Assembly (NCBI GenBank): GCA_017938285.1
Contig: JAGBBW010000088.1
Coordinates: 1 to 52,401, forward strand
DNA: 52,401 nucleotides
Source: Lachnospiraceae bacterium
GTDB taxonomy: Bacteria; Bacillota; Clostridia; Lachnospirales; Lachnospiraceae
Direction: 5' to 3'
The notes beneath the pieces were generated by a model, which was not told the DNA's origin, made no database searches, and saw only the letters and a list, made by a program, of their open reading frames with translations. Position numbers and translations under genes: made by a program. How positions within the stretch are numbered: the stretch's first letter is position 1; the number at the start of each line of letters is the position of its first letter. Positions 19,910 to 48,485 of this stretch are shown here, piece by piece.

Positions 19910-20917
19910 TTATCCAAGTAATGCTCTGTACTGTGCCGCTTCGTCCATCCTCCCCTGCTGTTCCAGCAGACGGATGGCTTCTTTCAACGCCTCTGCACCT
20001 CCATAAAAAATGCAGACATAACTCTCCGCTTCCAGTGCCGCTCTTTTATACCAGTACACCGCTTCCGGCAGGCGTTCTGCTGTTTCATAGTACTGTCCCA
20101 GCAGATAAAATAATTCTGCCGGAAGACTGCTGTTTCCTGCCAGTTCCATCAGACATAACGCTAACAGATCCTCCCACTCCTGTCGGAGGGCAAGGGATTT
20201 TGCCAGTACACAGAGTGCTTCGTACCTGGCGTCCTGGGAAAGTTCTGTCTGTTCCAGTCTTGCCAGAAACCACTGCTCTGCCTTCGCAAAATCTTCCTTC
20301 GTTCCGGAAATAAACAGTTCCTTGGCATACATACTGTATAACCGTCCGGACAGGCGGCCACTCTTTAACAGTTCCCGCTCCATCGCCTGAAAATCCCTGG
20401 AGGAATGCATACTCTGGGGACGATGCATAATCTCGATATCACTACTGTATACCACCGGGTCCAGTGCCACGGTTTCATGCACCGGGTCAATCCAGCGGAA
20501 TTCCCGCAGCCGCTTAAACAGTTTTGGTCTTGGCTCTCTGGTAAAATTGTAGACCATATTACAGTCTTCGGGATTCACATAAATCATTTCCACAATTTCA
20601 ATCTCCGGCAGAAGCACCTGCTTTAACTGCAAAAATTTTCTGCGGTCGATTGGCTCCAGCACTTCATCGGCATCCGCAGAGTAAATATAGTCCTTCGTTG
20701 CCTTCGAAAACGCAAAATTTCTGGCAGCAGAAAAATCATGCACCCAGGTAAAATCATATATTTTATCGGTATACTGTGCCGCAATTTCCTTCGTCCGGTC
20801 TGTGGAACCGGTATCCACAATAATAATTTCATCCGCAATCCCCTGCAGGGAATCCAGACACCGTGAAAGTACGGCTTCTTCATTTTTTACAATCATACAA
20901 ACACTGATACTGACCAT
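19910..20917 (-). CDS. Family-2 glycosyltransferase with TPR-like tail
   Basis: The 335 residues start with a GT-A fold: SVCMIVKNEEAVLSRCLDSL, DEIIIVDTGSTDRTKEIA, and the metal-binding SADADEVL (about residues 85-92). The C-terminal half (about 200-335) is TPR-like helices, including AELFYLLGQYYETAERLPEAVYWYKRA. This architecture (GT2-TPR) is common for protein or surface-glycan glycosyltransferases in clostridia. The ATG at 20917 is preferred because GGAG lies 9 nt upstream; the frame opens four codons earlier. The neighbours (flagellar genes upstream, Maf-like gene downstream) suggest flagellin or flagellar-surface glycosylation (inference). Confidence 0.8.
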   Translation of the reverse strand: MVSISVCMIVKNEEAVLSRCLDSLQGIADEIIIVDTGSTDRTKEIAAQYTDKIYDFTWVHDFSAARNFAFSKATKDYIYSADADEVLEPIDRRKFLQLKQVLLPEIEIVEMIYVNPEDCNMVYNFTREPRPKLFKRLREFRWIDPVHETVALDPVVYSSDIEIMHRPQSMHSSRDFQAMERELLKSGRLSGRLYSMYAKELFISGTKEDFAKAEQWFLARLEQTELSQDARYEALCVLAKSLALRQEWEDLLALCLMELAGNSSLPAELFYLLGQYYETAERLPEAVYWYKRAALEAESYVCIFYGGAEALKEAIRLLEQQGRMDEAAQYRALLG

Positions 20918-20946
20918 GGGACACTCCATTTTATTATTATAGTTTT

Positions 20947-31452: not shown

Positions 31453-31497
31453 AATATTCCTCTATTCCAGTGTATCACACTGTTCTTCTAAATCTTT

Positions 31498-33273
31498 TTA
31501 TCCAAGTGCATTGAGTAAATGTTCCAGCATCTGGTTTACTACATTGACATATCTCGCCGACGCATTGTACGCATGCTGGTAACGAATCATATTCGTAAGC
31601 TCCTCATCCGAAGATACTGCCGTTACGGAAAGTCTCTGGTTCTCCACACTGTTGGCCAGCGTTTCCTGTGCCTGGTAAATGTTACGGTATTTTTCACCTC
31701 TGGTTCCCAGCGCACCAATCATTTCGGTATAATATTCATTAAAATTATGCTTCTTATACTCATTTGGAGTCAGCGTGGAAAATGGTTCCTGCCACTCTGT
31801 CATCAGCTTTTCCGCAACCTCTACTGCATAGTTACCGGTTCTGTCATTCGTAGACAGTGGAATCAGAGATGGGTCTTTCATAATATCCGGATTTACTTCA
31901 ATCTCACCAAGGGTAAACAGACTGTAATTGTTTTCCGGATCTTCTTCATTATACTTCCAGACATCCACTTCCTGGAAAATACCATTCACTTCAATCATTG
32001 CAGTGGTCTTCTCATAACGGTCCATGGATTTGCGGTTAAACAATGCCTCGCCCGGTGTAAAGTTTTCATCCATACCAACCGGCGCATTTTCTGCATCAAA
32101 TATTTTAATCGTTTCCCCATCCGCTGTCAGTACTTCCTTATTCGGACAAAGCAGATCATTAATTGTTGTTACCACACCATGAATCAGCTGGTCAAACTGG
32201 GCCTGGACACTGACAATGGCAGAGCCTTCGATTTCCAGGTTGAACGTTTCCACATCCTTTTCATACTGGCGGTAATCCTTTTTATACTCATCTTCATCAA
32301 AATAACCGGATTCATCCGTATAATCCTCTTTCTGCGGTTCTCTCGGAATATGGGTATATTTACCTACAATATTACCACGTACCAGCATCAAACCTTTTAA
32401 AGAGCCAATGTCCGTATTTGCCTGTGTTGTTGGCAACGGGTTAAAACTATATACCGGTATGTCATTATAACACGGCCAGTACGGTTCAATCATACCGGTA
32501 TCATTTTCCAGAAGTCTGGTATCCATATGATACACCAGATCTTCCGATACAAGTGTCTGATTTTCCAGCATTACTGTAACAACACCATTGGTATGCTCTT
32601 TATATGTAATATCTGCCAGACTTCCCAGCTCGTCCAGAAGCAGATTTCTCGCATCCCGGTAGTCATTAGCATTCTCCATGCCGCTGGATTCGTATTTCTG
32701 GATTTTACCGTTCAGCTCTTTGATTTCTTCTGCAATTTCATTGATACGGTCCACGTAATCCCGAATGTTGGCATTCAGACTTACCTGGTACTCCTTTACC
32801 TGGTCAAATACCATTTCCGCACGTTCTACAAAGCTTACTGCTGTCTGGATAAAACTGGATCTGGTAACAATACTGTCCGGCTCTTTGCAAAGCTCCTGCA
32901 TTGCCACCCAGAAGTCCTCGATGGAATCCTGAAAAGCCACACCTTCCGTTTCACCCAGAATTTCCTCCATCTCTGTTGCACATTCATACTGTGCCTCATA
33001 AAACTTCTGCCGTCCGATTTCCTGCCGGTAAGCTTTATCCAGAAACTGGTCACGAACCTGTGTCACTGCCGAAACAGTAGCACCATGACCAACTAACAAA
33101 TGCGCATTTGCACTTCTTCCTATATTGGTATAGAAGGTATCCGTCATTATCGTCTGCTGGCGGACATATCCTTTCGTTTCTACATTTGAGAGGTTATGCG
33201 CTGTTGTATTCAAACCACGCTGACTCACCTGCAGACCGGAAATACCGGTATATAAACTACCCATTAATCCCAT
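31498..33273 (-). CDS. FlgK paralogue (first copy in the operon)
   Basis: 591 residues from the ATG after AAGGAGAGG. It has the same FlgK ends as the next gene: SLYTGISGLQVSQRGLNTTAHNLSNVETKGYVRQ at the N-terminus and SVTAVSSDEELTNMIRYQHAYNASARYVNVVNQM at the C-terminus. The middle domain differs, with an acidic segment (EPQKEDYTDESGYFDEDEYK). Whether both are present in one junction or are used under different conditions is unknown. Confidence 0.9.
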   Translation of the reverse strand: MGLMGSLYTGISGLQVSQRGLNTTAHNLSNVETKGYVRQQTIMTDTFYTNIGRSANAHLLVGHGATVSAVTQVRDQFLDKAYRQEIGRQKFYEAQYECATEMEEILGETEGVAFQDSIEDFWVAMQELCKEPDSIVTRSSFIQTAVSFVERAEMVFDQVKEYQVSLNANIRDYVDRINEIAEEIKELNGKIQKYESSGMENANDYRDARNLLLDELGSLADITYKEHTNGVVTVMLENQTLVSEDLVYHMDTRLLENDTGMIEPYWPCYNDIPVYSFNPLPTTQANTDIGSLKGLMLVRGNIVGKYTHIPREPQKEDYTDESGYFDEDEYKKDYRQYEKDVETFNLEIEGSAIVSVQAQFDQLIHGVVTTINDLLCPNKEVLTADGETIKIFDAENAPVGMDENFTPGEALFNRKSMDRYEKTTAMIEVNGIFQEVDVWKYNEEDPENNYSLFTLGEIEVNPDIMKDPSLIPLSTNDRTGNYAVEVAEKLMTEWQEPFSTLTPNEYKKHNFNEYYTEMIGALGTRGEKYRNIYQAQETLANSVENQRLSVTAVSSDEELTNMIRYQHAYNASARYVNVVNQMLEHLLNALG

Positions 33274-33367
33274 TGCACTGCCTCTCCTTCCTTTCTGCAT
33301 TTTATTTATGAATTATGGCATAACCCGACTCTGTTCACATAAAAACAGACAGAGCTGTTTCCTGCCT

Positions 33368-33880
33368 TTACTGCTTTGCATCAAACATCCCTGTCTGCGA
33401 AGCGGTCATATCCCATTGACCTGCGTTCTTTGTATAATTATTTCCAGGTACGATCCTTGTACTCTGAATCAGATTCATGTTGTATGAAATCATTTCAAGC
33501 GACTGTTCCAGCAGGTTTTTATTGTGCCCATTCACTTCAGACACCTGTTTTAAAAGTTTCAGCAGATCCTTGTGAAGCTCGTTCAGCTGCTTCTGCTCCT
33601 GCGGCTGACGGTCCAGTATCTGAATCAGCTTGGGAAGTGTCAGGTCTGCTTCCTTTTTATTCAGAACAATACCAATATTTTTAATAATACCGGTACGCTT
33701 CTTTTCCAATCCGTTAATCTTTCCGATTGTTTCCTGCTCCAGTTCCGTAATCGCCTGAACCTGTTTCAAATCATTTGCAATAATTGCTTTTGTTTTCTGC
33801 TCGACTACCGGCAGCAGTTCCTGATAAGCCTCTGCCTCCTGACGGAGTGTGGCTATCAGTTCTTCCATTAAGCTTGCCAT
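33368..33880 (-). CDS. flgN: Flagellar chaperone FlgN
   Basis: 170 residues, nearly all helix. The pattern SLMEELIATLRQEAEAYQELLPVVEQKTKAIIANDLKQVQAITELEQE and the following KINGLEKKRTGIIKNIG match FlgN, the export chaperone of FlgK and FlgL, whose genes follow. The C-terminal tail (TSQTGMFDAKQ) contains no folded motif. The RBS is GGAG. It lies 17 nt after flgM. Confidence 0.85.
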   Translation of the reverse strand: MASLMEELIATLRQEAEAYQELLPVVEQKTKAIIANDLKQVQAITELEQETIGKINGLEKKRTGIIKNIGIVLNKKEADLTLPKLIQILDRQPQEQKQLNELHKDLLKLLKQVSEVNGHNKNLLEQSLEMISYNMNLIQSTRIVPGNNYTKNAGQWDMTASQTGMFDAKQ

Positions 33881-33897
33881 AAATGAATCTCCGTCTC

Positions 33898-34170
33898 TTA
33901 TAAAGTAAGTCCACTTAATAACTTATCAGCCAGGGCAGACATGGATACATTGTAAGTACCATTCGCCATCTTCGCCTTAAGCTCCTGAACTTTATCCGTC
34001 CGGATATCCTCTGCCTGGGCAACTGCCTGTTTTGCGATCTGAAGGTCTCTGCCGAATTCAGATATTTCGACAGAATCCTTTGTATAACCAGAAGTCTTCT
34101 CTGCCTTTTTTCTTGGGCTGCTGTTTACCTGATACAGCTGACTGATTTCCGACATAGCATCAATACGCAT
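33898..34170 (-). CDS. flgM: Anti-sigma-28 factor FlgM
   Basis: 90 residues from the ATG after AGGATGGTGAG. The C-terminal half with DKVQELKAKMANGTYNVSMS and ALADKLLSGL is the sigma-28-binding domain of FlgM. The N-terminal half is disordered and basic, as needed for export through the hook. FlgM holds sigma-D inactive until the hook is finished. It is the first gene of the operon and is itself preceded by a sigma-D promoter, giving the usual autoregulatory loop. Confidence 0.9.
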   Translation of the reverse strand: MRIDAMSEISQLYQVNSSPRKKAEKTSGYTKDSVEISEFGRDLQIAKQAVAQAEDIRTDKVQELKAKMANGTYNVSMSALADKLLSGLTL

Positions 34171-34303
34171 TTTACTCACCATCCTATTACACAAAAAACT
34201 TATAATAAAGTACCTTCATCAAAACTTTTACTATCACTGCAGCTGCACTATCTTTACAGCCTGTCAGTAAATATTGTGTGTGTTTTGATTACTTATATAC
34301 CAT

Positions 34304-34331
34304 ATATCGGACAGTCTAAAAAAATACTTTA
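34304..34331 (-). promoter_or_regulatory. Sigma-D (sigma-28) promoter of the flgM operon
   Basis: On the minus strand TAAA (34331-34328), 16 nt, then TCCGATAT (34311-34304). This matches the sigma-D consensus except for one -10 base. The start would be near 34297, about 125 nt before the flgM ATG. Confidence 0.75.
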
Positions 34332-34400
34332 GAGGAATTGGATTTTTTTGTGACACAATTCTGTAAAGAAATAAAGAAAGATTTTTGTGCAAAATAAACA

Positions 34401-34440
34401 AAACCATAAAACTACATACGGGCATATAGTTTTATGGTTT
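34401..34440 (-). terminator. Terminator after lysA
   Basis: AAACCATAAAACTA and TAGTTTTATGGTTT pair perfectly over 14 bp around a 12-nt loop, with T-rich sequence following on the minus strand. It lies about 30 nt after the lysA stop and ahead of the flgM promoter. Confidence 0.8.
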
Positions 34441-34469
34441 CGTCTCATTCTGCACAACCAGCAGTTACT

Positions 34470-35738
34470 TTATTTCAAATTCAGCTTTGGAAATGTATCC
34501 GAAAAATCAAAGGTGGCAAAATAATCTGCCGGAGTCTCCGCACGGCGGATCATCTGCACTTCACCGTTTTCCTTTAACAAAAGCTCTGCGGAACGCAGCT
34601 TGCCGTTGTAATTGTAACCCATGGAAAAGCCATGGGCTCCGGTATCGTGAATGACTACGTAATCACCAATATCAATCTTTGGCAGCATGCGGTCAATCGC
34701 AAACTTATCATTATTTTCACAAAGGGAACCGGTCACATCATACTTGTGGTCACAAGGCATGTCTTCCTTGCCAGGAATCGTAATGTGATGATAAGCACCA
34801 TACATTGCCGGACGCATTAAGTTTACCGCACAGGCGTCCAGACCGATGTACTCCTTGTAAATATGCTTTTCATGCACAGCAGTAGCCACCAGCTGTCCAT
34901 AAGGCGCCAGCATAAAACGGCCAAGTTCCGTGAAAATTGCCACATTGTCCATACCTGCCGGCACAAGAATTTCTTCATACGCCTTTCTTACACCTTCGCC
35001 AATGGCAAAAATATCATTCGCCTGCTGTTCCGGACGATACGGAATACCAACACCGCCGGACAGGTTAATGAAGGTAATATTTGCTCCGGTCTTTTCCTTT
35101 AATTCCACCGCCAGTTCAAACAGGGTTCTGGCAAGCATTGGATAATAGTCATTTGTTACGGTATTACTGCAAAGGAAGGAGTGAATACCAAATTCCTCCA
35201 CGCCCTTGCTCTTTAAAATCTTATAACCTTCAATCATCTGCTCCTTGGTCATACCATACTTGGCATCTCCAGGGTTGTCCATAATACCGTTGCTGACCTC
35301 ATACACACCACCCGGATTATAACGGCAGCAGATACGCTTTGGCAGACCAGCCACCTTTTCCAGAAATGCAATGTGGGTAAAATCATCCAGATTGATGATG
35401 GCACCTAATTCCTTTGCTTTTACAAACTCCGCCGGAGGAGTCGCATTGGAGGAAAACATGATTTCCGTACCAGTGGAACCCACTGCTTCCGACATCATCA
35501 GCTCTGTCATGGAAGAACAGTCAAAACCACAGCCTTCTTCCTTTAATACCTGCATAATATATGGATTTGGAGTAGCCTTTACTGCAAAATATTCCTTAAA
35601 TCCCTTGTTCCAGGAGAACGCCTTTGCCATGTTTCTGGCATTTTCCCGGATACCCTTTTCATCATAAATATGAAACGGGGTTGGATATTTCTTTGTTACT
35701 TCTGCAATCTGTTCTTTGGTCAAAAAGGATTTTTTCAT
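34470..35738 (-). CDS. lysA: Diaminopimelate decarboxylase-type PLP enzyme
   Basis: 422 residues, fold-type III PLP decarboxylase. YFAVKATPNPYIM carries the Schiff-base Lys; GVEEFGIHSFLCSNT contains the His, and ITFINLSGGVGIPY is the glycine-rich phosphate loop of DAP decarboxylases, which turn meso-diaminopimelate into lysine. The C-terminal GSLCENNDKFAIDR and DTGAHGFSMGYNYN motifs supply the other subunit's active-site residues. It belongs to the subgroup close to carboxynorspermidine/DAP decarboxylases, so substrate certainty is moderate. The start is the ATG after AGGAGAAATC; a 36-codon extension upstream crosses the promoter. It is monocistronic between two terminators. Confidence 0.85.
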   Translation of the reverse strand: MKKSFLTKEQIAEVTKKYPTPFHIYDEKGIRENARNMAKAFSWNKGFKEYFAVKATPNPYIMQVLKEEGCGFDCSSMTELMMSEAVGSTGTEIMFSSNATPPAEFVKAKELGAIINLDDFTHIAFLEKVAGLPKRICCRYNPGGVYEVSNGIMDNPGDAKYGMTKEQMIEGYKILKSKGVEEFGIHSFLCSNTVTNDYYPMLARTLFELAVELKEKTGANITFINLSGGVGIPYRPEQQANDIFAIGEGVRKAYEEILVPAGMDNVAIFTELGRFMLAPYGQLVATAVHEKHIYKEYIGLDACAVNLMRPAMYGAYHHITIPGKEDMPCDHKYDVTGSLCENNDKFAIDRMLPKIDIGDYVVIHDTGAHGFSMGYNYNGKLRSAELLLKENGEVQMIRRAETPADYFATFDFSDTFPKLNLK

Positions 35739-35889: not shown

Positions 35890-38361
35890 TTACGGAATCA
35901 GTGATTCAAACTGTGCAATCGCTTCCCGGTTATATTCTTCATAGTCCACATTCAGACTCTTTGGCACTTTGCCATCCAGGCAGTCCTTCATTCCCTGTAG
36001 GATACCTTCCTCACTGTTTTCCACCAGAAGGCCACCATGCTTCTCCATGAAAGGTCTTGGTCCCGGAATGTTTGTGGAAAAACAAGGAATTCCCAGCATA
36101 TCCGCTTCTGCCAGAACAAGACCAAAAGCTTCATACAAAGAGGTCAGTGCCAGCGCATCACATTTTTTCAAAATCGTATAAGGATTGGACATATACCGTA
36201 TCAGGTAAATATGATCCCGGCTAGGAGATTCCTTTACCATTTGCAGTGTCTGTTCATATAACGGACCATAGCCTCCTAAAATAATCAGATACGTATCCTC
36301 ATACTTTTTTTCCTCCCGCAGCTTTTCAAAGGAGCGAATCAGACGGTCGTGGCTCTTTTCCACAGAAAAACGGCCAAGGGAAATAATTTTCTTTGCATCC
36401 GAATCCAGCATTGCCAGCAGACGTTCCCGTGCCACACTTAATATCGACTGATCATCAAAGGCAATTTCTTCCTCCGCCAGACTAAGCACTCTCTGATAAT
36501 CAATTACATTTTTACAGAGAACAATATTAGCCTTTCCTGCACCTTTTTCCTTTTTGTATTCAGAAATTCTCTGAATTGGCGGCATCATGTCCTCTGTTAC
36601 TGCTGCCACAGAATCATACCGTTTATATGCATGACTGAGCAGAGCCTTATCCGCATTGCCCTTCATCGCAATTTCCTGTTCCATGTCACTATGGGCGTAA
36701 ATAGTACGGCTGCATGGCAGACTTTCAAAAATACCGGTAAATTCATAAGAATAGCCGGTGAACTGGATTGCCTTGTCAATCCTCATGGTACTGAACACAC
36801 GTCTCGCATCACGGGCCGAAATCCGCTCATAAACCGGACGGACCCACCGGAATGGAAGAATCTTAATTTCCCTCCACGCCATATATGGAATAATTTCAGA
36901 CAGTTTTGCACTTCTGGCATGATAGAACCCATAATAGGAGACATTTTCCGGCAGCCGCTTGACGTCTTCCGGATGTTTTCTGATATCATTGATTCTGAAC
37001 ATGACCGCATAATTATACTTCGTTGTATCCAAAGTATTTAAGAGATTCAGGGCAGCCGTTGTAATACCATTCTTTTCAAATGCACCAATAAACAGCATGA
37101 CATTTTTCTTCCCATTGTCCGGTATATCCTGTTCTTCAATCAGACCGCTTTTTTCTCCAAATAAAAATTTATGACACAGTGCTTTTGTAACACCTTCTTT
37201 GTCATAGGCACAGAATTTTTTCAGAAATTCCGTATCATCATAGCACAAAGGTCTCTTCAGTTCCTCGATCAGTTCTTCCACTGTGTTTACCTGCGGGAAC
37301 GGAAGCTCCTCCAACGGAAAATAGAATCCTCTGTCCTGCAGATATTCTTCCTTGTCATACGTAAACAGAATAATTTTCTGTCGTCCCACTGCATAGTCAA
37401 AAAAGACACTGGAATAGTCTGTAATCAGCACATCCGCTGCATGCAGAAACTCGTAACTGTCATATTCCTTCGGAAACGGACGGATGTTCCTGTATCCTGA
37501 TAAATCAATTGCTGTGACATTCATCTGGTGCAGTTTGACATACATTACCTGGTTCTTTTCCAGAAGCCCGTCCAGTTCATCAAAATACAGTTTTAACTGT
37601 ACATTCTGGGTGGCACCATTCACCTTGCCGGTAGAACCTCTCCAGGTTGGCATAAAGGCAATCACCTGCTTGTCTCCAAACCCACATTCTGACCGCACTT
37701 CTTCCCGTCTTTTCTTATTGAGGAATATCTGGTTTCTCGGGTAACCGGTCAAAAGCAGCTTTGTCCTGCCAAAATTCCTTAACATATAGTCATCCACAAA
37801 AACATCCCTTGTGAATTCATTCGGACAAAGAAGATAATCGGAATCAAAAAAGCACTTCTGCACATTTCCAATCAGGGCATAGTCATTGTTCATTTGTTTT
37901 CCAAGGGTTTTTAACGGTGTTCCGTGCCATGTATTTAACAACACCTGCTCCGGCCGCTTAATGAACACATGGATAAAGCTTACTTCTGTCACCAGATATT
38001 TCGCCGTGGCAAGCGCTTTAAAATATTCCGGTGTATCCAGAGTCAGCACCTTTACTCTTTCCATTCCCTGACTTTTCAAGTATTCCTTCCGGTTTTCCGT
38101 AATATAACCCTTTCCTGCCAGATAAATGGTATACTCCTGATATTCCTTTTCAAAATATAACTCTTTCAGAATTGCCGCAATATTTCCGGTTGGTATTCCA
38201 CCATCCTGTGCTTCCAGTAAAATGGCTTTCTCCTCAATTGGCAGATCCAGATACCGGATATATTTTTTTCTTGCGTAGTAGCCGCTTTTCCGCTTGGTCA
38301 GACGCCCAAGCATTGTCTTTAAGCCACTTGCCTTTTTTTTCATTTTATCCTTCAGATTCAT
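35890..38361 (-). CDS. CDP-glycerol glycerophosphotransferase-GT4 glycosyltransferase fusion (paralogue 1)
   Basis: 823 residues. The N-terminal domain (about 30-400) is TagB/TagF-like: [13 protein letters not shown] with His146, YVKLHQMN with His278, and [14 protein letters not shown] near 311-324. These His residues are the expected catalytic pair for glycerol-phosphate transfer from CDP-glycerol. The C-terminal part (about 410-823) is a GT-B fold of family GT4: KKIISLGRFSVEKSHDRLI, IILGGYGPL, and EAFGLVLAEADMLGIP with the nucleotide-sugar Glu pair. One protein could thus add glycerol phosphate and a sugar to the same cell-surface polymer. The acceptor is unknown. The RBS is AGGG. It is last in the locus and highly similar to the 43862-46375 product. 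Confidence 0.85.
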   Translation of the reverse strand: MNLKDKMKKKASGLKTMLGRLTKRKSGYYARKKYIRYLDLPIEEKAILLEAQDGGIPTGNIAAILKELYFEKEYQEYTIYLAGKGYITENRKEYLKSQGMERVKVLTLDTPEYFKALATAKYLVTEVSFIHVFIKRPEQVLLNTWHGTPLKTLGKQMNNDYALIGNVQKCFFDSDYLLCPNEFTRDVFVDDYMLRNFGRTKLLLTGYPRNQIFLNKKRREEVRSECGFGDKQVIAFMPTWRGSTGKVNGATQNVQLKLYFDELDGLLEKNQVMYVKLHQMNVTAIDLSGYRNIRPFPKEYDSYEFLHAADVLITDYSSVFFDYAVGRQKIILFTYDKEEYLQDRGFYFPLEELPFPQVNTVEELIEELKRPLCYDDTEFLKKFCAYDKEGVTKALCHKFLFGEKSGLIEEQDIPDNGKKNVMLFIGAFEKNGITTAALNLLNTLDTTKYNYAVMFRINDIRKHPEDVKRLPENVSYYGFYHARSAKLSEIIPYMAWREIKILPFRWVRPVYERISARDARRVFSTMRIDKAIQFTGYSYEFTGIFESLPCSRTIYAHSDMEQEIAMKGNADKALLSHAYKRYDSVAAVTEDMMPPIQRISEYKKEKGAGKANIVLCKNVIDYQRVLSLAEEEIAFDDQSILSVARERLLAMLDSDAKKIISLGRFSVEKSHDRLIRSFEKLREEKKYEDTYLIILGGYGPLYEQTLQMVKESPSRDHIYLIRYMSNPYTILKKCDALALTSLYEAFGLVLAEADMLGIPCFSTNIPGPRPFMEKHGGLLVENSEEGILQGMKDCLDGKVPKSLNVDYEEYNREAIAQFESLIP

Positions 38362-38420
38362 TTCAATTCCCTTTCACAACAGCACACATACTTCTGCAGC
38401 CAGCCCCTGCTTCCCTATGT

Positions 38421-40913
38421 TTATATCATTCTTTCAAACTGTTCTACTGCCTCCATATTGTACCGCTCATAGTCTATCATAAGCTTTTTCGGCACATTGC
38501 CCACCAGACACTGCTTCATTCCGTCCAGAACACCATCCGTACTGTTTTCCACAAGCATACCGCCATACTGCTTCATAAATCCCCTAGGTCCCGGAATATC
38601 CGTGGAAATGCACGGCAGTCCTACCAGGTCAGCTTCTGTGATAACAACAGGAAGTCCTTCATAAAAAGAAGATAATACAAAATAGTCACAGCGTTTCAAC
38701 AACGCATAAGGATTTGACAGATACTGGATAACAGCCACATCTGCCGCTGCTTCCAGACTCTTTGCCTTCTCCATTGTTTTTTCAAACAGATTTCCATAAC
38801 CACCCAGAATCACCAGACAGGTATCCGGATGTTCCCTGTGTAACTGCTCAAACGCATCCAACAGGCGCATATGCCCTTTTTCGGCTGAAAATCTGCCAAT
38901 GGTAATAAATTTCTTTTTGTCAGAGGACAACAGGCGTTCCAATTCTTTTTCGTCCATACTCAACTGGGACTGTCCATCCACAAAAAACTCTTCCTCTTTC
39001 AGCTTTTCCACACGCTGATAATTTATGATATTTTTAGCCAGAACAATATTAGTGTTTTCTGCCGGATTATTTCCATTGGAATACCCGGCAATCTTTTCCG
39101 TCATACTGCGCTGTTCTTCTGATACCAGCGCCACATGATCGTAGTTCCGGTACGCATTCCTCAATATTTCCTTCCGGATGCCCGACTTCTTTTTTAATTC
39201 CTTCACCATATCATTGTGTACATAAATGATTCTGTTACATGGCATTTTTTCAAACATCATCATCGCATCTGTGCCATACCCGTCATACTGCACCACGGTA
39301 TCTATGCGGCAGAATGACAATAACCGTTCCACCTCATATGCAATCCGGCAGTTTAACATTTTTTCTGCTTTGGCATACGAATATTTTTCTTCATAGATCC
39401 AGTTATTATATAATTTTCTGTCTTTTCCGGATACGCCGCGTATATGGGTAAATCCATAGTATGTCACATTTTCCGGGAACTGCCGTAACACTTCCTCTTT
39501 ATCCTTTAATAATTCCATCCGGTAAAAGATAATGTAATTATTTTTATTGGTATCCAGACGGCTTAATAAGCTGATAATGGAAGATGTAATACCATTTTGT
39601 GAAAGTGTACCCGGATAAATCAGAATATTTTTCTTTCCATTATCCGGTGTATCCTTTACCGTAATTTCCGGCACCGCTTCTCCCAGAAGAATTTTCCGGC
39701 AGACCAGTTCCGCCATATCCGGGCGGTTATGGCGGCAGTATTTTTTATAAAATACGGAATCATCATAGTTTATTTTCTGATTCAGTTCCTTCACAAGTCC
39801 ATCCACATCCGGCACCTTTGGAAACGGCAGCTCCGGATGAAGCTGGTAAGCCGCCTCAAAGGCATCCTTCTGCATATAATCAAACAGAATTATCTTCTTT
39901 CTTGTAACCGCAAAATCAAAAACAGAAAAAGAACTATCGGTAATCAATGTATCCACTACATTGAACAACTGATAGATGGTATATTTTTTTGGCATAACCG
40001 TAATTTTTTTGTAACCGGAAAAATCAATACTCTTCTGTACGTCTTTCGGCACATCCACCAGCAGCACCTGGTTTTCTGTCAGTTCTTTTTCCAGTCTGGA
40101 AATCGTTTCCCGCAGGTTTTCTTCTTCTGCCAGCCGCAGTTCACCACCTGCCCTGCCGTGAACTGCCGGCTGGTACAGGAACACTGTTTTTCCTCTCCAC
40201 TGACAGTTCTCCCGGATTTCCTCTGCAAGCTCCGCACAACACATTGTTTTGTTCCTAAAGTTTCCAGTAAACACAAACTTTGTTTTTCCGATATTTGCCA
40301 GCATGTAATTGTCTACCAGGGACTCCATTGTCATCTCATTTGGACATAACAGATAATCCGCACTCAGCAGGTTCTTCTGCACATTGCCAATCTGCCCATA
40401 CTTTGTTTCCGCATAACGTCCACCTGGTCTCGCCGGAATCATATTCCACAACTTTATATAAATCTGTCCCTTTCTTTTCACAAAATGAGGAACAAAATTA
40501 CCATCATTAAATAAAAACTTTGCTGTAGCAAGCGCCTGATAGTATTCCGGAGAGCCATAGCCTACCGCCTGAATTTCCGGCATACCAATCCAGCTTAAAT
40601 AATCCTGGAATTCTTCTGTCTTTTCTTTATTACAGGTCAGATAAATCTTATAGTTCTGGTACTCTGGCTGCTTTGCTAAAACTTCTGTAATGCTCCGGAC
40701 AGCATCACCCAGTTTTTCCCCGTACTCTGATTCCAGTAAAATACTGTTTTCATCCACAGGCAGGGTCTGGAGGCATTCCATATATCCTTCCTGAAGAAGA
40801 ATGCGCAGTGGAGGATTCTGTGCCGCCCGCTTATCTTTTTTATTCTTTTCACGGATTTCTTTTTTTCTCTGCTTTTCTTCTTTTCTTTCGTTACGATTGC
40901 TCCACATCTCCAT
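38421..40913 (-). CDS. Glycerophosphotransferase-like/GT4 fusion with degenerate first domain (paralogue 2)
   Basis: 830 residues with the same overall layout as its neighbours, after a highly charged Lys/Glu/Arg N-terminus (about 1-30). In the first domain the signature NTWHGTPLK is KLWNMIPARPGG (Asn157 in place of His), the KLH motif is VDVPKDVQ, and [11 protein letters not shown] is TDSSFSVFDFA. The catalytic histidines are therefore gone, and this half is probably inactive or structural. The GT4 half keeps KKFITIGRFSAEKGHMRLL, VILGGYGNL and SSFYEGLPVVITEADLVGLP. It may be a sugar transferase that has retained a polymer- or lipid-binding domain (inference). The RBS is GAGGGG 12 nt upstream; a second ATG two codons later is also possible. 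Confidence 0.8.
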   Translation of the reverse strand: MEMWSNRNERKEEKQRKKEIREKNKKDKRAAQNPPLRILLQEGYMECLQTLPVDENSILLESEYGEKLGDAVRSITEVLAKQPEYQNYKIYLTCNKEKTEEFQDYLSWIGMPEIQAVGYGSPEYYQALATAKFLFNDGNFVPHFVKRKGQIYIKLWNMIPARPGGRYAETKYGQIGNVQKNLLSADYLLCPNEMTMESLVDNYMLANIGKTKFVFTGNFRNKTMCCAELAEEIRENCQWRGKTVFLYQPAVHGRAGGELRLAEEENLRETISRLEKELTENQVLLVDVPKDVQKSIDFSGYKKITVMPKKYTIYQLFNVVDTLITDSSFSVFDFAVTRKKIILFDYMQKDAFEAAYQLHPELPFPKVPDVDGLVKELNQKINYDDSVFYKKYCRHNRPDMAELVCRKILLGEAVPEITVKDTPDNGKKNILIYPGTLSQNGITSSIISLLSRLDTNKNNYIIFYRMELLKDKEEVLRQFPENVTYYGFTHIRGVSGKDRKLYNNWIYEEKYSYAKAEKMLNCRIAYEVERLLSFCRIDTVVQYDGYGTDAMMMFEKMPCNRIIYVHNDMVKELKKKSGIRKEILRNAYRNYDHVALVSEEQRSMTEKIAGYSNGNNPAENTNIVLAKNIINYQRVEKLKEEEFFVDGQSQLSMDEKELERLLSSDKKKFITIGRFSAEKGHMRLLDAFEQLHREHPDTCLVILGGYGNLFEKTMEKAKSLEAAADVAVIQYLSNPYALLKRCDYFVLSSFYEGLPVVITEADLVGLPCISTDIPGPRGFMKQYGGMLVENSTDGVLDGMKQCLVGNVPKKLMIDYERYNMEAVEQFERMI

Positions 40914-40930
40914 TGTCCGGTAACCCCTCT

Positions 40931-41317
40931 CTATTTATGCAGATCCTGTTTGATTTTTGTTGTGGAAATACCGTCCGTACGAGGCAGATACACTACCTCA
41001 CAATATTCCTTCAGAAAATCAAACTGGCCTTTCCAGTCATCGCCCATAACAAATACATCAATCTGGTTATCCACTACATCAGAAATTTTCTGCTCCCAGC
41101 AGGTTTCCGGAAGAACCTCATCCACATAGCGGATGGCTTCGAGAATAGCCTTCCTGTCCTCAAAACTATGATAGGCCGTTTTATGCTTCACCGCATTAAA
41201 TTCATCCGTGGAAAGCACAACAACGAGATAATCGCCCAATTCTCTTGCTCTTTTCAATAAGTTAATATGTCCAATATGTAATAAATCATAAGTTCCGTAA
41301 GTAATTACCTTTTTCAT
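40931..41317 (-). CDS. tagD: Glycerol-3-phosphate cytidylyltransferase
   Basis: 128 residues. It makes CDP-glycerol from CTP and sn-glycerol 3-phosphate, the activated donor for the flanking transferases. The nucleotidyltransferase motifs are complete: ITYGTYDLLHIGHINLL (HxGH) and LPRTDGISTTKI. The start is the ATG after AAGGAG; an 8-codon upstream extension would overlap the RBS. It lies 17 nt before paralogue 2, so both are on one transcript. A strong terminator separates it from the beta-helix gene upstream, so a separate promoter must exist, which I cannot pick out clearly. Confidence 0.95.
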   Translation of the reverse strand: MKKVITYGTYDLLHIGHINLLKRARELGDYLVVVLSTDEFNAVKHKTAYHSFEDRKAILEAIRYVDEVLPETCWEQKISDVVDNQIDVFVMGDDWKGQFDFLKEYCEVVYLPRTDGISTTKIKQDLHK

Positions 41318-41412
41318 GGATTCTGACTCCTTTTTCTGCATGGCATAACGCAGACAGCTTCAGGTCTGCTTCCTTTCTCCCTGCGTATCATATTCTCTAA
41401 TAAAACGGAAAA

Positions 41413-41454
41413 ATTCTTACACGGGAAAATTCTGAAATTTTCCCATGTAAGAAT
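41413..41454 (-). terminator. Strong terminator after the beta-helix gene
   Basis: ATTCTTACA-GGGAAAATT and AATTTTCCC-TGTAAGAAT form an 18-bp stem with one mismatch and a 4-nt loop, followed by ATTTTTCC on the minus strand. It divides the polymer locus into two transcripts. Confidence 0.85.
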
Positions 41455-41493
41455 CAGTATAACTCATTTCCTCTGATTTTTCAATCCGTCAGA

Positions 41494-43842
41494 CTATTTA
41501 ATTGTATTATCCTTGCTGGTGCAGTTTTCGGAACTGGTCAGCCATACTTCCCTCTTTGGATAAGCACCTGCCACAGTATTTCCTGTAGCAGTGGTATCAT
41601 TGGACTGGCTGATGCGGATTCCGGCCAGAGTTTCTACGGTAGAAACTTCATTTCCTGTCACCTTGGAAGCCGGCGCCTGGTAAATCATAATGGAGATATC
41701 TGCAGTGCCGGAAACCTTGTTCTTATCAATTGTAGTCGCATCACAGCTGGTCGTTGCATAAATACCGTTCTTTGTAGTACCGGAAACTTCATTTCCACGG
41801 ATGGTACAGTTCTTGCTCTGGTATACATAAATTCCACAGCCTGCCACATCATGAATTTTGTTTTCCACAATTTCCACATACTCAGAAGCGTTTACATGGA
41901 TACCATTCTGGTCTGTTTCCTCACCCGGATTGGTAATTTCATTCTTTTCAATCACCGTCTTATTGTCTTTGCTTCCAGCTTCATAAATGGCAATACCATG
42001 CTTATTTGCTTCCTTCTGGGCATAGTCAGAAATTTTATTATTGCTGATTAATGCTCCGGTACTGCCGCTGGCAATCCAGATACCACAGCTTCCTGTCTTT
42101 GTTATCTTATTTTCCTTAATTTCTGCATTCAGGCTGTTCTTTTCCAGAATAATACCATAGCCTTCGGTATTTTCTATCGTATTTCCGCTCATCACCAGTT
42201 CTGAAACAGTCGTAGCAAAAATTCCATAGCGGATTGTTGTACTGATTTTGTTATTTTTTACGGTAATTCCGCTCATCGGCATACCTTCCGTTGCACTCAG
42301 ACGGATGGCATCACCATAGGTATCACTCTTAATTGTAACGTTGCTGATTGTATTATTTTCCAGTACAATATTCAGATTTTTCGGGTCCGCTGCTGCTTTT
42401 CCACTCAGTGGCTTAAAGTAAGCATCCTTTTTGGAATTGCCAAGTTCACTGTAAACTACAATACCACCGGCACAATTACTGATTTCGTTACCGGAAACCG
42501 TTGTATCCTTGTACTGGTACAGCTTAATCGCCACTTCTTCCATATCGTGGATTTTATTATTCTGGATTACGATACCTTCATGAAATACTCCCGCCACTGC
42601 TGTATGACTTCCAATCGCTCTGGAAAAATCATAAAACTCACAATTACGGATAGTTACGTTCTTGCAGGCAAGGTCATCCCACTTAATATTCTGGGAAGTC
42701 GGCACAATTTCCACACTATGGGCAATATCTAACTGTAATGCTTCTTTTGGATCACGAACGGAATCACCATCGTCACCATAGCCATGGAAGCTGCAGTTTT
42801 CCACCAGGGCATCCTTTACACCGGCCAGCACCACAAAATGGCCGCCTTCCGGAAGATTGGCAAATTCCGCATTTTTAATTGTAATATTGGAAGCATGAAT
42901 AAAACGGAAGGTTTCTGTTCCCTCTTTTCCATTCATTACTGCTTTAGAATCCCACAAACCACCATTAACCGTCACATTTTCACAGCCATCATAACCACCA
43001 TTATCGTTTAAAATACCGCTCTCTATCACAGCACCATAAATTCTGTTTTTATAAATTTCTGCACCTTCTGCCATAATCGTTGTGTTGGAATATACATATA
43101 ACGTACTGTCCAGATGATATTCCCCAGCAGGAAGGATTACAATCAGTTCATCATAACTGCCATACTGGTTCATGTCCAGTAAAGACTGGATAGAACGGGC
43201 AGAGTCCCCCGGATATGCTGATACCTCCTTCACATTCCGGTTCGGGTCCGGCGTCGGTGTAGCTGTCGGTGCCGGAGTTGGTGTGGATGTTGGCGTCGGG
43301 CTCGGTGTTGGACTCGGCGTCGGTGTTGGCGTGGACGTCGGCGTCGGGCTTGGTGTGGACGTCGGTGTCGGGCTTGGTGTGGATGTCGGCGTCGGGCTTG
43401 GTGTGGATGTCGGCGTCGGGCTTGGTTCGGCTGTTGGTTCTACCGTTGGCTCAGCTGTTGGTTCCACCGTTGGTTCGGCTGTCGGCTCCACGGTAGGTTC
43501 GGCTGTTGGTTCTACCGTTGGCTCGGCTGTCGGTTCTACCGTTGGCTCGGCTGTCGGTTCTACCGTTGGCTCGGCTGTCGGTTCCACCGTTGGCTCAGCT
43601 GTCGGTTCTACCGTCGGCTCGGCTGTTGGTTCTACCGTTGGCTCCACGGTCGGCTCGGCTGTTGGTTCCACGGTCGGTTCGGCTGTCGGTTCCACAGTTG
43701 GTTCGGCTGTTGGCTCCATCGTCACTGTCGGAGTACTGGTGGCTGTCACCACTGCTCCAGACTCTGTTTCCTGCGGTGTTCCACAGGCACACATGGCACA
43801 TACTGATGCTACCATTAAAATTTTCATTCCACGTTTTTTCAT
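41494..43842 (-). CDS. Beta-helix lipoprotein on an EPTA/EPTV repeat stalk
   Basis: 782 residues. The N-terminus [20 protein letters not shown] fits a lipoprotein signal with Cys at about position 20. Residues 43-138 are 24 tandem EPTA/EPTV tetrapeptides, followed by about four PSPTPTST units and more Pro/Thr sequence to about 192: a rigid, glycosylatable wall-spanning stalk. The rest (about 200-782) is a right-handed parallel beta-helix with many N-x-I and G-I-x-I repeats (for example [24 protein letters not shown]). Such folds are common in polysaccharide lyases, hydrolases and epimerases, but no catalytic set is obvious. The start is the ATG after GAGGAG. It lies 19 nt after paralogue 3, so it probably acts on or binds the same surface polymer. 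Confidence 0.8.
43429..43716. repeat. Minisatellite: 24 tandem 12-bp units encoding EPTA/EPTV
   Basis: 288 bp of in-frame 12-bp units, mostly alternating in pairs (24-bp period), with one EPTV-EPTV pair out of phase. A second array of 24-bp units encoding PSPTPTST follows at about 43330-43428. Units differ mainly at synonymous positions. Copy number could change by slippage or recombination without a frameshift, altering stalk length. Confidence 0.95.
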
Positions 43843-43861
43843 CTGAACACTCTCCTCTGTT

Positions 43862-46375
43862 TTATTCCTGTTGTCCCCTGGACAGAAGCGCTTCAAACTG
43901 CGCCACTGCCTCTTTGTTGTATTCCCCATAATCCACGGCCAGCCGTTTGGGAACCAATCCCTTCACGCAGGCCAGAAGCCCCTGATAAATACCTTCTTCA
44001 CTGTTCTCTACCAGCAGTCCGCCATGCTCCCTCATAAAAGCTCCCGGTCCTTCCAGATCCGTACTGAAACACGGCACTCCGAGAATATCCGCCTCCACCA
44101 GCACCAGTCCGAAGCCTTCATAAAAAGAAGACAGCACCAGCCCGTCACACTGCTTTAACAGTGGATACGGGTTGGACATATACCGTATAACCACGATATC
44201 ATCCGCACAGTCTGTCTGTTCTGCCCACGCCACGGTTGTCTGGTACAAATCACCATATCCGCCTACAATAAACAGGCAGGTATCCGGTTCTGCCCGATGC
44301 AGACGTTCAAATGCCTTTATCAGACGTTCATGTCCCTTTTCCGGTGAAAAACGTCCAATCGTTATCAGCTTCTTTCTGGACGAAGCAAGAAGCTCCCGAA
44401 TCCGTGACTCTGGCATATTATAAACCGTAGCAGTGTCAAAAACAAGTTCTTTTTCCGCTAATTCCACGATTCTTCCCGTATCAATCACATTTTTGCAGAT
44501 GGAAATCTCTGCTTTGTCACAAATCCGTTTTGTCACCGGAACCATGCCTTCTGTTACTGCTGCCACCGCATCATAGGTTTCATAGGCATACTGAAGCAGC
44601 CTCTTATCAATTTTCTTTAAAACATCACTTTCCCGCTCCATGTCACTGTGCACAAAAATTGTCCGGCGGCATGGCATGGCGGCCATCGTCATCATCATTT
44701 CCGGTACATAACCAATATACTGGATTACCTGGTCCACCCGGCAGCTTCCAAAAAGTCTCTGCCGTTCCCGGACACCATACCGCTCCAATATTGGCTGAAT
44801 CCGCTTAAAAGAAGGTTTCCGGAACAGTTTCCATGCCGCATACGGCACAAATTCCACAAGAGTCATACTCTCTGCCCGGTAAAAACCAAGATAGGACACC
44901 TTCTCAGGAAGCACTTTAATAACCTCCTGATTACCCTTTACATCATTCATCCGGTAAATCACATAAAAGTTATACTTTGTGTGGTCCAGACGGCGCAGCA
45001 GATTCACTGCTGCCGTGGTAATGCCATTCTTTTCAAAGCCGCCGATAAACAGAACTACATTTGGTTTTCCATTGTCCGGCACGGACTGCTCCTGAATCAG
45101 CCTGTCCACATTTTTTTCTGCTTTTCTCCCGCTGCCGGAGAATTCCATTTCTCCACAAATGCCAGAAACATTCTTCCCGACACTTTCGAGAAACACCCGG
45201 CTGCACAATGCCGCTGTCACACCTTTCCGGTCATACGGACAGAATTTCTCCAGAAATTCTGCATCTTCATACTGCTTTGGACGCTTTAATTCCTCTGCCA
45301 GTTCTTTGACCGAATACACCTGTGGAAACGGCAGTTCCTCTAATGGGAAATAAAATCCCCGGTCTTTTTCATACTCCTCCCGGTCATAAGGAAACAAAAT
45401 TATTTTCCGCCTGGTCACCGCATAGTCGAAAAACACACTGGAATAATCCGTCACCAGCACATCCACGGCATTCAGAAACTCATACGTATCATACTCTGCC
45501 GGAAATGCTTCGAGATGACGATAACCGGATAATTCCATGCTTTCCATTGTCATCTGGTGCAGCTTGACAAAGCACTTCTGATGGTCCAGAAGCAGCCCGT
45601 CCAGCTCCCGTAACATCCTCTGCAGCTGTTCTCTCTGACTGCTGCCCTCCACGGTTTCCATGGTCCCCCGCCAGGTCGGAAGAAATGCAATGGTCTGTTT
45701 CTCCCCAAAGCCTTCTGCCCTGCGGATTTCCTCCCGCCGCTTCTCATCCAGCAGCCGTTCATTCCGGGGATATCCGGTCAGTAAAAGCCTGGTCTTTGCC
45801 AGATTGGAAAGCATGTAATCCCGCACCAGCACATCCCTTGTAAACTCATTCGGGCAGAGCAGATAATCCGCGTCCAGAAAATTCCTCTGGACATTTCCTA
45901 TCATGGCATAGTCTGATTTCACCTGCCGCCCCAGCGTTTTTAGCGGCGTTCCGTGCCAGGTATTTAGGTACACCTGCTCCGGCCGCTTGATAAACGAAAA
46001 ATGAAAGCTGACCTCCGTCACCAGAAATTTAGCTGTAGCCAGCACCTTAAAATATTCTCTTGTTCCAAAGGCAAGCACCTTTACCCGGTTCATACCTTTC
46101 CGTCGCAGATACTGCTTTCTCGTGTGTAACGTCTCTTTTTTTCCAGAAAGGCAGATGTGAAACTTCTGATACGCTGTATTGCTGCAAAGTTCTTCCAGAA
46201 TTGCCGCAATATTATCCGTTGGATTTGCCCCATCCAGAGACTCCAGTAAAATCACGTTCTCCTCCACCGGGCAATGCTCCCGGTACCAGATGTAGCGGGT
46301 GCGGAAATAGAGTTCCGGACGCAGCTTTGCTCCATATTTCGTTGCTTTTTTCCATAAGGTGCGGATACCTGCCAT
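43862..46375 (-). CDS. CDP-glycerol glycerophosphotransferase-GT4 glycosyltransferase fusion (paralogue 3)
   Basis: 837 residues, first gene of the locus. The TagF-like domain keeps [13 protein letters not shown] (His141), FVKLHQMT and [14 protein letters not shown]. The GT4 half has [28 protein letters not shown] and [20 protein letters not shown]. Compared with paralogue 1 it has an extra segment at the domain junction (about 395-425, rich in Gly/Ser/Lys). Both catalytic halves look intact. The product likely acts at the inner membrane face on a lipid-linked or membrane-bound acceptor. The RBS is AGGAAAGG. A good promoter lies 35-65 nt upstream, divergent from parE. Confidence 0.85.
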
Positions 46376-46411: not shown

Positions 46412-46440
46412 AGTATACCTTTTTTCTTGCTCCAATGCAA
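46412..46440 (-). promoter_or_regulatory. Promoter of the polymer locus
   Basis: On the minus strand TTGCAT (46440-46435), a 17-nt spacer and TATACT (46417-46412). An inverted repeat CTTGC/GCAAG overlaps the -35 box. It is divergent from the parE promoter nine bases away. Confidence 0.65.
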
Positions 46441-46535: not shown

Positions 46536-48485
46536 ATGGAACAATATAATGGCAGTCAGATTGTGGTTTTAGAAGGTCTGGAAGCGGTCAGAAAGCGTCC
46601 CGGTATGTACATCGGAAGCACCGGCTCCAGAGGTCTGCACCACCTGATCTGGGAAATCTTAGACAATGGTATTGATGAACATCTGGCGGGCTTCTGCTCC
46701 CGGATTGATATAACCTTACAAAAAGATGGTGGCATCTGCATTACCGACCACGGTCGTGGTGTGCCGGTGGACATCCATCCGACCAAAAAAATCCCAACCG
46801 TCCGGGTAGTTTACACGATTCTGCACGCCGGAGGTAAATTCGGCAGCGGCGTATACAAGGTTTCCGGTGGTCTTCATGGCGTTGGTGCTTCGGTAGTCAA
46901 CGCCCTTTCCACAAAAATGGTTGTAGAAGTAAAAAAGGACGGCAAAGTATACCGGGATACTTACGAAAACGGTGGACACCCGACCACAGAACTGGAAGAC
47001 GGTCTGCTGCCAGTGGTAGGCAAATGTGCCAAATCCGACACCGGAACCAAAGTACTTTTCTATCCGGACCCATCCATTTTTGAAACCGTGGAATTTAAGC
47101 CGGATATTATTACCAAGCGCTTAAAAGAGTCTGCCTTCCTGAATAAAGGTCTGACCCTGTACTTTAAAGATGAGAAAAACGGAACCGAAGTGACCTTTCA
47201 TGAAGAAGAAGGTATCAAGAGCTTCGTTTCCCACATTACAAAAACCGCTATGAAGGACGCAGAAAACATGAAACTTCTGCTGCCGGAACCGGTTTATGTG
47301 GAAGGCACCAGCGGCGACATTGAAGTGGAAGTTGCCTTTACCTACACCAACTCCTACCAGGAGCAGATTAACGCCTACTGTAACCGTATCAACGTGGTAG
47401 ACGGCGGTACTCTGGTGACCGGTTTCAAAAACGCCCTGACCCGCATTATGAATAAATACGCCAGGGAGCTTGGCGTTTTAAAGGACAAGGATGAAAACTT
47501 TGACGGTAAGGATATCCGTAATGGTCTGGTTTCCATCGTTTCCATCAAGCACCCGGACCCGCAGTTTGAAGGCCAGACCAAGACAAAGCTGGGCAATACA
47601 GACGCCAAAAGTGCGGTAGATGATGTATTTGCCGCTGAGGTTACCAGATACTTTGACAAAAACATCGAGGAGCTTCGTGCCATTTTAGACAACACCATGA
47701 AGTCCTACAATGCCAGAAAGGCCGGAGACAAGGCAAGAAACGCCATCTTAAAGCAGTTAAACGATGTGGATACCCGGAGCAAGCTTGCCTCCTGCTCCTC
47801 CAAAAAACCGGAGGAATGTGAAATTTACATTGTCGAGGGTGATTCCGCCGGCGGTACGGTAAAAACCGCCCGCAGCCGTAAAACCCAGGCCGTGCTGCCT
47901 CTGCGTGGTAAAATTTTAAACGTAGAAAAGGCTCCTCTGGAAAAGATTTTAGTAAACAAAGAAATCCAGACCATGATTGCCTCCTTTGGCTGTGGTATTG
48001 GCGATGATTTTGATATCAGCAAGCTCCGCTATGACAAGATTATTATCCTGACCGATGCCGACGTGGACGGTGCCCATATCAGCACCCTGCTGCTGACTTT
48101 CTTCTACCGCTTTATGCCGGAGCTTATCATGGAAGGAAAAGTGTACCGGGGACTGCCGCCACTTTACAAGGTGGACTATGAAGCTTCCGGCAAGGGAAAG
48201 AAAGCAAAACAGTCCCAGTACCTGTTCAACGACTTCGAACTGGAAAAATTCCGTAAAGAGGGACACAAAATCCTGGCTCTGCAGCGTTATAAAGGTCTTG
48301 GTGAAATGGACGCTGACCAGTTATGGGAAACTACCCTGAATCCGGAAAGCCGTATTCTGGCGCAGGTTTCCATTTCAGATACGGTGGAAGCAGACGAAGT
48401 AACTTCGCTATTGATGGGCAGTGCTGTACCGCCAAGACGGGCGTTTATTGTGGAGGAAGCAAAATATGCGAAGCTGGATGTGTAA
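46536..48485 (+). CDS. parE: DNA topoisomerase IV subunit B (type IIA, GyrB-like)
   Basis: 649 residues. The GHKL ATPase shows ILDNGIDEHLAGF, DHGRGVPVDIHP and SGGLHGVGASVVNAL; the transducer has the FEGQTKTKLGN loop; the TOPRIM metal site shows EGDSAGG and DADVDGAHI. It hydrolyses ATP to drive strand passage by the A subunit. parE versus gyrB cannot be settled by motif alone. I choose parE because the partner A subunit lacks an evident GyrA box, and gyrBA normally sits near dnaA/recF. The RBS is AGGAGG. It is the first gene of a three-gene plus-strand operon. Confidence 0.85.
   Translation: MEQYNGSQIVVLEGLEAVRKRPGMYIGSTGSRGLHHLIWEILDNGIDEHLAGFCSRIDITLQKDGGICITDHGRGVPVDIHPTKKIPTVRVVYTILHAGGKFGSGVYKVSGGLHGVGASVVNALSTKMVVEVKKDGKVYRDTYENGGHPTTELEDGLLPVVGKCAKSDTGTKVLFYPDPSIFETVEFKPDIITKRLKESAFLNKGLTLYFKDEKNGTEVTFHEEEGIKSFVSHITKTAMKDAENMKLLLPEPVYVEGTSGDIEVEVAFTYTNSYQEQINAYCNRINVVDGGTLVTGFKNALTRIMNKYARELGVLKDKDENFDGKDIRNGLVSIVSIKHPDPQFEGQTKTKLGNTDAKSAVDDVFAAEVTRYFDKNIEELRAILDNTMKSYNARKAGDKARNAILKQLNDVDTRSKLASCSSKKPEECEIYIVEGDSAGGTVKTARSRKTQAVLPLRGKILNVEKAPLEKILVNKEIQTMIASFGCGIGDDFDISKLRYDKIIILTDADVDGAHISTLLLTFFYRFMPELIMEGKVYRGLPPLYKVDYEASGKGKKAKQSQYLFNDFELEKFRKEGHKILALQRYKGLGEMDADQLWETTLNPESRILAQVSISDTVEADEVTSLLMGSAVPPRRAFIVEEAKYAKLDV

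Follow-up and report, generated by a model that had tools for sequence, protein, structure and literature searches.

Polymerases in which a TagF-like domain is joined to a GT-B glycosyltransferase domain have already been published (PMC5974469, PMC11666461), and the view of the initial annotation of this locus that known systems use separate enzymes for the two reactions does not hold. In Cps3D of Actinobacillus pleuropneumoniae, a crystallised capsule polymerase (PDB 8qoy), an N-terminal TPR domain, reported to be necessary for poly(Gro3P) elongation in Cps3D/Cps7D, is followed by a Gro3P transferase and an alpha-galactosyltransferase that work in alternation (PMC11666461). The TPR domain is reported for the majority, not for all, of the TagF-like/GT-B family. 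When single-domain mutants of Cps7D were mixed in vitro, polymer synthesis was restored to the wild-type level, and the same paper describes the biosynthesis of type II wall teichoic acids (WTA) as little known and a role for such homologues in it as worth investigating (PMC5974469). In the open-licence literature, judged by titles and the openings of abstracts, we found no description of Gram-positive, Lachnospiraceae or Methanobrevibacter forms of the fusion.

The surface-polymer locus considered here occupies positions 35890..46375, on the minus strand, of the window, which is the whole stretch of 52,401 nucleotides analysed from a Lachnospiraceae assembly (3.2 Mb, 154 contigs, 87% complete). 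The open reading frames lie where the initial annotation had placed them, and the features of the locus and its flanks are the following:

46536..48485, plus strand: parE/gyrB-type topoisomerase gene, conserved upstream flank outside the system (family scan, relatives)
46412..46440, minus strand: candidate locus promoter, TTGCAT-17-TATACT (by eye; weak -35)
43862..46375, minus strand: W3, TagF-like and GT4 fusion with both active-site motif sets kept (ORF, Pfam, alignment)
41494..43842, minus strand: putative beta-helix lipoprotein with a PT repeat, accessory (Pfam; start and lipobox read by eye)
41412..41455, minus strand: strong hairpin with a T-rich stretch after it, in the gap from the lipoprotein gene to tagD (terminator scan)
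40931..41341, minus strand: TagD, glycerol-3-phosphate cytidylyltransferase, for CDP-glycerol supply (TIGR01518 above cut-off)
38421..40913, minus strand: W2, fusion with a dead TagF-like site and intact GT4 motifs (ORF, Pfam, alignments, predicted model)
35890..38361, minus strand: W1, TagF-like and GT4 fusion collinear with Cps3D, both active-site motif sets kept
34473..35738, minus strand: diaminopimelate-decarboxylase-like gene, conserved downstream flank outside the system (Pfam/family models, relatives)
34397..34444, minus strand: terminator-like hairpin separating the decarboxylase gene from the flagellar genes (terminator scan)

W1, W2 and W3 (823-837 residues) match the Pfam family Glyphos_transf (PF04464, residues about 35-400) with 204, 105 and 214 bits against a cut-off of 22.1, and C-terminal to it the GT4 family (PF00534, matched at about residues 655-810) with 85, 98 and 93 bits against 26.4; none of the three comes near the equivalog cut-offs of TarF, TarB or TarL. 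The TagD frame (136 aa) reaches 200.6 bits with TIGR01518, for which the cut-off is 165.4. The observation made in the initial annotation, i.e. three fusions whose N-terminal domains belong to a glycerophosphotransferase family, with a CDP-glycerol synthase beside them, is thus confirmed, and its interpretation is partly supported. These three proteins are the only PF04464 matches in the 87%-complete assembly, and the same search found no single-domain TagF-family protein in this genome, while the published cps7 cluster has Cps7A and Cps7C.

The kinship with the capsule polymerases extends over nearly the whole length of the fusions. W1 residues 36-822, about 790 residues, align with residues 378-1139 of Cps3D (E 8.1e-84), and the sequence matches of W3 and W2 have E values of 3.6e-84 and 7.3e-58. 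Cps3D is also the top PDB match of the predicted models, both for W1 (pLDDT 91.6; E 8.3e-60, TM 0.79 by query) and for W2 (E 3.4e-49). The two systems share the order of a TagF-like domain and then a GT-B domain in one chain, a neighbouring CDP-glycerol synthase, and, in W1 and W3, the catalytic histidines and GT4 motifs. They differ in that the window host is Gram-positive and has several paralogues, some of them half-dead, without the TPR domain: W1–W3 have no Pfam TPR match, and W1 residue 36 already aligns at Cps3D 378.

All three proteins carry TagF-like and GT-B domains in one polypeptide, the feature that defines the family (Litschko 2018); both TagF-like catalytic histidines, which also belong to its definition, are present in W1 and W3 and absent from W2. 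In the three-way alignment, W1 and W3 keep [18 protein letters not shown] and TDYSS, and two of their histidines align with the catalytic histidines named for TagF and Cps7D. In W2, WHGTP is changed to WNMIP, KLHQM to DVPKD and TDYSS to TDSSF, so that it reads LWNMIPAR, PAVHG, DVPKD and TDSSF at the four motif regions compared, which are not as such the five motifs of PMC5974469. Asn and Pro stand where both catalytic histidines stood, and for this reason we regard W2 as a homologue and not as a bifunctional member of the family. The first lost histidine aligns as asparagine, the same substitution as in TagF H444N, a protein that PDB titles describe as soaked with CDP-glycerol. The GT4 half of W2 retains GRFSAEK and EGLPVVITE, and the conserved GT-B Arg and Lys are present in all three copies (GRFSxEK). 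The proposal of three equal bifunctional copies therefore fails at W2, while that of one polypeptide building a glycerol-phosphate/sugar repeat is borne out for a collinear enzyme by what is published on Cps3D (PMC11666461).

This loss is not an individual trait of the window. The first histidine is lost in 5 of 48 distinct full-length fusions, comprising 5 of 12 in the window genus and none of 36 outside it, these rows being related and not independent. In all four genus genomes (the window genome, G150, G151 and G152) the fusion directly downstream of tagD is without at least the first histidine; in the G150 copy it is the only one gone. G151 has a second copy without the first histidine (locus L057, 10004-12463). 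The opposite defect occurs too: at L057 19552-22143 the GT4 motifs are altered (GGFSKEKGY, EGLGTNLADAD) and the TagF-like site is intact, and the catalytic GT4 part is missing in L034 8252-9949 and L057 14883-16826. Read by eye, the GT4 motifs have changes at Arg, Lys and Glu in two proteins only, those of L057 19552-22143 and L059; L016 reads ARLSVEK. A further G150 copy (L119 1040-3583), with 253 bits for Glyphos_transf and intact motifs, is divergent and not dead.

The L059 protein (447-2816) is a Methanobrevibacter fusion with GDYSKSK at the GT4 motif and intact TagF-like histidines, and represents a possible independent half-dead case. With its altered GT4 motifs, the loss of the GT4 site is not confined to the window genus.

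The divergence of the two halves matches which half is lost. Mean identity to a set of active copies (TagF-like/GT4) is 54/48% for W1, 35/43% for W2, 38/47.5% for the dead copy of G152 and 50/37% for L057 19552-22143. In the trees, W2 and its G151 counterpart, which has the same dead half, are grouped with support of 100/100 on both domains. The GT4 domain rejected a single clade of all tagD-proximal dead copies when four rows were tested (p 0.016) and did not when three were (p 0.14); the TagF-like domain did not reject it with either set (three rows, p 0.57; four rows, p 0.42).

We consider it fairly probable from these sequence comparisons that the locus represents a Gram-positive variant of the TagF-like/GT-B polymerase family and makes a sugar-glycerol-phosphate surface polymer. 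The product would be a negatively charged chain of one or more sugars and glycerol phosphate, with inferred donor sugars and linkages. TagD would supply CDP-glycerol, and W1 and W3 would be two-domain polymerases like Cps3D and Cps7D, their TagF-like N-terminal half adding glycerol phosphate to a terminal sugar and their C-terminal GT4 half adding sugar to the terminal glycerol. W2 would be an enzyme in its sugar-transfer half only, its dead TagF-like half probably serving as a scaffold or acceptor holder. Since only the sugar-transfer half is kept, W2 could act in trans with W1 and W3 by bringing a second, different sugar into the repeat or by priming the chain. The loss of one or the other active site in copies of related genomes suggests that the copies share the work, and the restoration of synthesis by mixed single-domain mutants of Cps7D (PMC5974469) indicates that half-dead copies can cooperate.

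Perhaps this is a natural and repeated split, in which paralogues at one hypervariable locus reciprocally lose the phosphotransferase or the glycosyltransferase half and form an obligate mixed complex, the live halves setting the repeat unit and the tagD-proximal copy being a dedicated glycosyltransferase on a dead TagF scaffold; we offer this extension tentatively. The motif loss in W2 could also be plain decay of one redundant copy. If so, only W1 and W3 would matter; W2 and the other half-dead copies would be duplicates in decay at a locus prone to recombination, and there would be no sharing of work. The locus does diverge fast between conserved flanks, and gene number ranges from 2 to 5 among the genus genomes, with copies broken or truncated differently. 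Decay nevertheless seems unlikely to us, because W2 keeps a full-length frame of 830 residues and all GT4 motifs, its model (pLDDT 88.5) predicts a fold for both halves, the dead domain included, it groups with its G151 counterpart, in which that half is likewise dead, and every genus genome has the same dead half in its tagD-proximal copy, with a single origin rejected on one domain and not on the other.

The lipoprotein might be another place for the sugars. Its frame (811 aa, 41494-43929) contains a PT-rich repeat and a Beta_helix match (PF13229, 151 bits), and the likelier start at 43842, read by eye, yields [21 protein letters not shown], in which the lipobox is plausible though imperfect. 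One may suppose that its PT-rich stalk receives sugars from the enzymes while still in the cell and is exported afterwards, as the gene lies among those of the window locus and encodes a long repeat rich in Thr. This we hold to be very improbable: the lipoprotein is unmatched at the locus in the three other genus genomes, despite tagD and fusions there. The beta-helix lipoprotein of the initial annotation hence stands as a protein, but its membership in the system is not supported, and we regard it as accessory.

The locus keeps a fixed chromosomal address. In the four genus genomes it is flanked by parE on one side and by the decarboxylase gene, flgN and two flgK genes on the other, with the flagellar order flgN-flgK-flgK-flgL-fliW beside it. 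The same flanks are found in L035 and L037; in L039 and L058 parE and flgN-flgK are present with the decarboxylase unmatched, and the L038 stretch excludes the parE side. Between these conserved flanks the content changes fast: identity to the window within the genus is 92-94% for parE, 89-98% for the decarboxylase and 83-89% for TagD, and 28-55% for the fusions (best tblastn pieces). A parE match of at least 72% identity is present in 18 of 150 family genomes, the window genome included. Among the 17 others, tagD and TagF-like genes occur at the address in G115 and G127, and in 14 stretches, several of them short, they were not found at parE by profile; in the remaining one, G068, a related tagD/TagF-like cluster lies downstream of parC.

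This position beside flagellar genes, together with the absence of an exporter or lipid primer gene from the locus, would suit a role in which cytosolic enzymes decorate flagellin or another filament protein with a sugar/glycerol-phosphate glycan. There are precedents in CD0244 of C. difficile (Type A) and the fused FgtA of P. aeruginosa (b-type): in these clusters (CD0240-CD0244 in C. difficile) a TagF-family transferase, joined in FgtA to a glycosyltransferase, acts on flagellin, although the donor proposed there is CDP-threonine, while the window locus has TagD (PMC10714395). A perfect sigma-28 box stands at the locus head in L037 of G115. However, the same flagellar neighbourhood lacks the locus in five relatives (G024, G054, G055, G074 and G099), and the G068 cluster adjoins parC. 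The fusions do not occur only with flagella, as flagellin glycosylation would require, and FliW gives no clear tie: of the 10 family genomes in which a full-length fusion occurs, 7 have it and 3 (G068, G078 and G136) give no hit, the corresponding figures for all 150 genomes being 78 and 72. Of the four genus genomes this search covered the window genome alone, and the fusions of those three genomes lie away from the window address. Locus L126 of G127, at the same address, encodes a PgfS-like protein along with a pyruvyl transferase, a combination that agrees better with an exported polymer. The window locus has a promoter-like element of its own, distinct from the sigma-28-like one that precedes the flgM-like frame. 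The locus-free neighbourhoods, the fusions without FliW and the separate promoter-like elements have lowered flagellin decoration from our first choice to a reading of small probability.

The candidate locus promoter was missed by the consensus scan because its -35 falls short; its -10-like element aligns by eye, without statistics, in the four genus genomes (TATACT, TATAAT, TATAAT, TATACT). Upstream of the flgM-like frame, which is named from its position, a sigma-28-like element (window 33880-34470; TAAA, a spacer near 17 and CCGATAT) likewise aligns by eye in all four. Sigma-28 control of the locus was considered and rejected, as the window has 9 and 81 sites at 1 and 2 mismatches against 7.5 and 79.1 in simulation; its one perfect site lies within W2, on the antisense strand. 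In the 10 other loci scanned, perfect sites are found only in L037 and L140, which represent one contig, at the locus head. The scan used spacers of 14-16, so sites with a spacer near 17 may be missed. Terminator-like sites in the window number 20 against 11.7 expected.

Several neighbours in the flagellar part of the window deserve mention in their own right. At 18964-20929, downstream of flagellar genes including fliS, there are candidate flagellin glycosyltransferases: a 317-aa protein with a Maf-like match of 16.8 bits, below the cut-off of 23.5, adjoins a weakly SunS-like GT2 protein. The 638-aa protein at 21017-22933, in the flagellar cluster, has a signal-like N-terminus (by eye) and matches no family above cut-off. 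Across the genus its identity is only 42-51%, against 53-89% for the flagellar genes around it. The two tandem genes at 29626-33300 are called flgK-like from their sequence and their conservation in relatives.

A surface polymer would need a membrane anchor and export, both of which we infer; the locus itself contains neither an exporter (TagGH) nor a lipid primer gene. The absence of tagO and tagA reported in the initial annotation is upheld: the scanned ORFs of the window include no tagO- or tagA-like gene, and TagA (WecG family, PF03808) has no match in the window genome or in 9 of 12 others, the nine including the other three genus members (completeness of the four genus genomes 87, 97, 86 and 78%). 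PF00953 matches one protein in each of the 7 genomes searched, including the window genome. In the two that were scanned with family models, G152 and G127, the best model is MraY (92 and 107 bits, below the cut-off of 192), ahead of WecA (40 and 44 bits), which suggests that the TagO of classical WTA synthesis is lacking. Priming transferases of PF02397 occur in all 7 genomes, in 2-5 copies each, so a lipid primer made outside the locus is possible. An LCP ligase has one strong match in the window genome and one weak match below the cut-off.

Compared with the TagF, TarF and TarB enzymes of WTA synthesis, the locus shares the phosphotransferase family and an activated donor from TagD, but differs in the low equivalog scores of W1–W3 and in the lack of TagA and of any PF00953 protein beyond one MraY-like candidate. 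A type II WTA, poly(glycosylglycerol phosphate), is the polymer type that would be expected here, and the locus is a candidate for its synthesis. The loss of both phosphotransferase histidines in W2 beside intact glycosyltransferase motifs, the loss of at least the first histidine in the tagD-proximal copy throughout the four genus genomes, with the glycosyltransferase half lost or truncated in some other copies, the fixed address with fast-changing content, and the lack of a TagA match beside one PF00953 protein per genome are new here. They provide a concrete Gram-positive set for investigating type II WTA-like synthesis (cf. PMC5974469), in which natural single-domain variants could reveal how two-domain polymerases divide their labour and how the repeat structure might be altered when half of one copy is silenced. 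They also mark, in gut Lachnospiraceae, a surface locus that is hypervariable yet keeps its place on the chromosome.

Counter-points to the polymerase reading are the lack of an exporter and primer in the locus, the missing TPR domain and the occurrence of some fusions elsewhere without tagD. The last is seen in a scan of genome contigs with two short peptide patterns, which gave 62 loci, 28 of them with a full-length fusion by the profile test. The association of homologues with tagD, by which the initial annotation proposed to judge its reading, holds for 18 of these 28 within the fetched stretch and fails for 10; in four of the 10 (L051, L052, L055 and L080) the stretch extends 4 kb or more to either side of the fusion, so not every homologue adjoins tagD. 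The 28 loci include Lachnospiraceae, Erysipelotrichaceae, Terrisporobacter, Staphylococcus simiae and Methanobrevibacter; given the Methanobrevibacter fusions in L052, L053 and L059, the product may differ between hosts.

Some relatives have richer gene sets. L042 brings together TarB-like and TarF-like single-domain proteins, a fusion and TagD, and TarF-like domains are fused ahead of the polymerase in L035 (one) and L039 (two), these TarB-like and TarF-like matches being below the model cut-offs. The three sets resemble cps7A-D in gene types, Cps3D being the sole cps sequence compared. The L039 protein (8540-13678, 1713 aa) has three TagF-family domains and then GT4, with intact motifs.

In Methanobrevibacter curvatus (L052 9213-14213) and M. 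filiformis (L053 841-6963) the fusion stands beside a protein with a pyruvyl transferase domain, assigned by Pfam for L052 and from a similar start for L053. A bacterial-type glycerol-3-phosphate dehydrogenase comes next in L053 and would fit a glycerol-phosphate polymer in an archaeon. The Staphylococcus simiae fusion of TagF-like and GT4 domains (L092 1-2364) is cut by the contig edge, and its fetched stretch is without tagD. L126 (607-7476), at the parE/decarboxylase address, encodes a GT2-TagF-like fusion, the pyruvyl transferase, the PgfS-like transferase, TagD and a TarF-like protein. A second architecture, with GT2 and/or other parts around the TagF-like domain and only the front of the GT4 profile matched, is common in L060-L093 and occupies the parE/decarboxylase address in L063, L065, L069 and L091.
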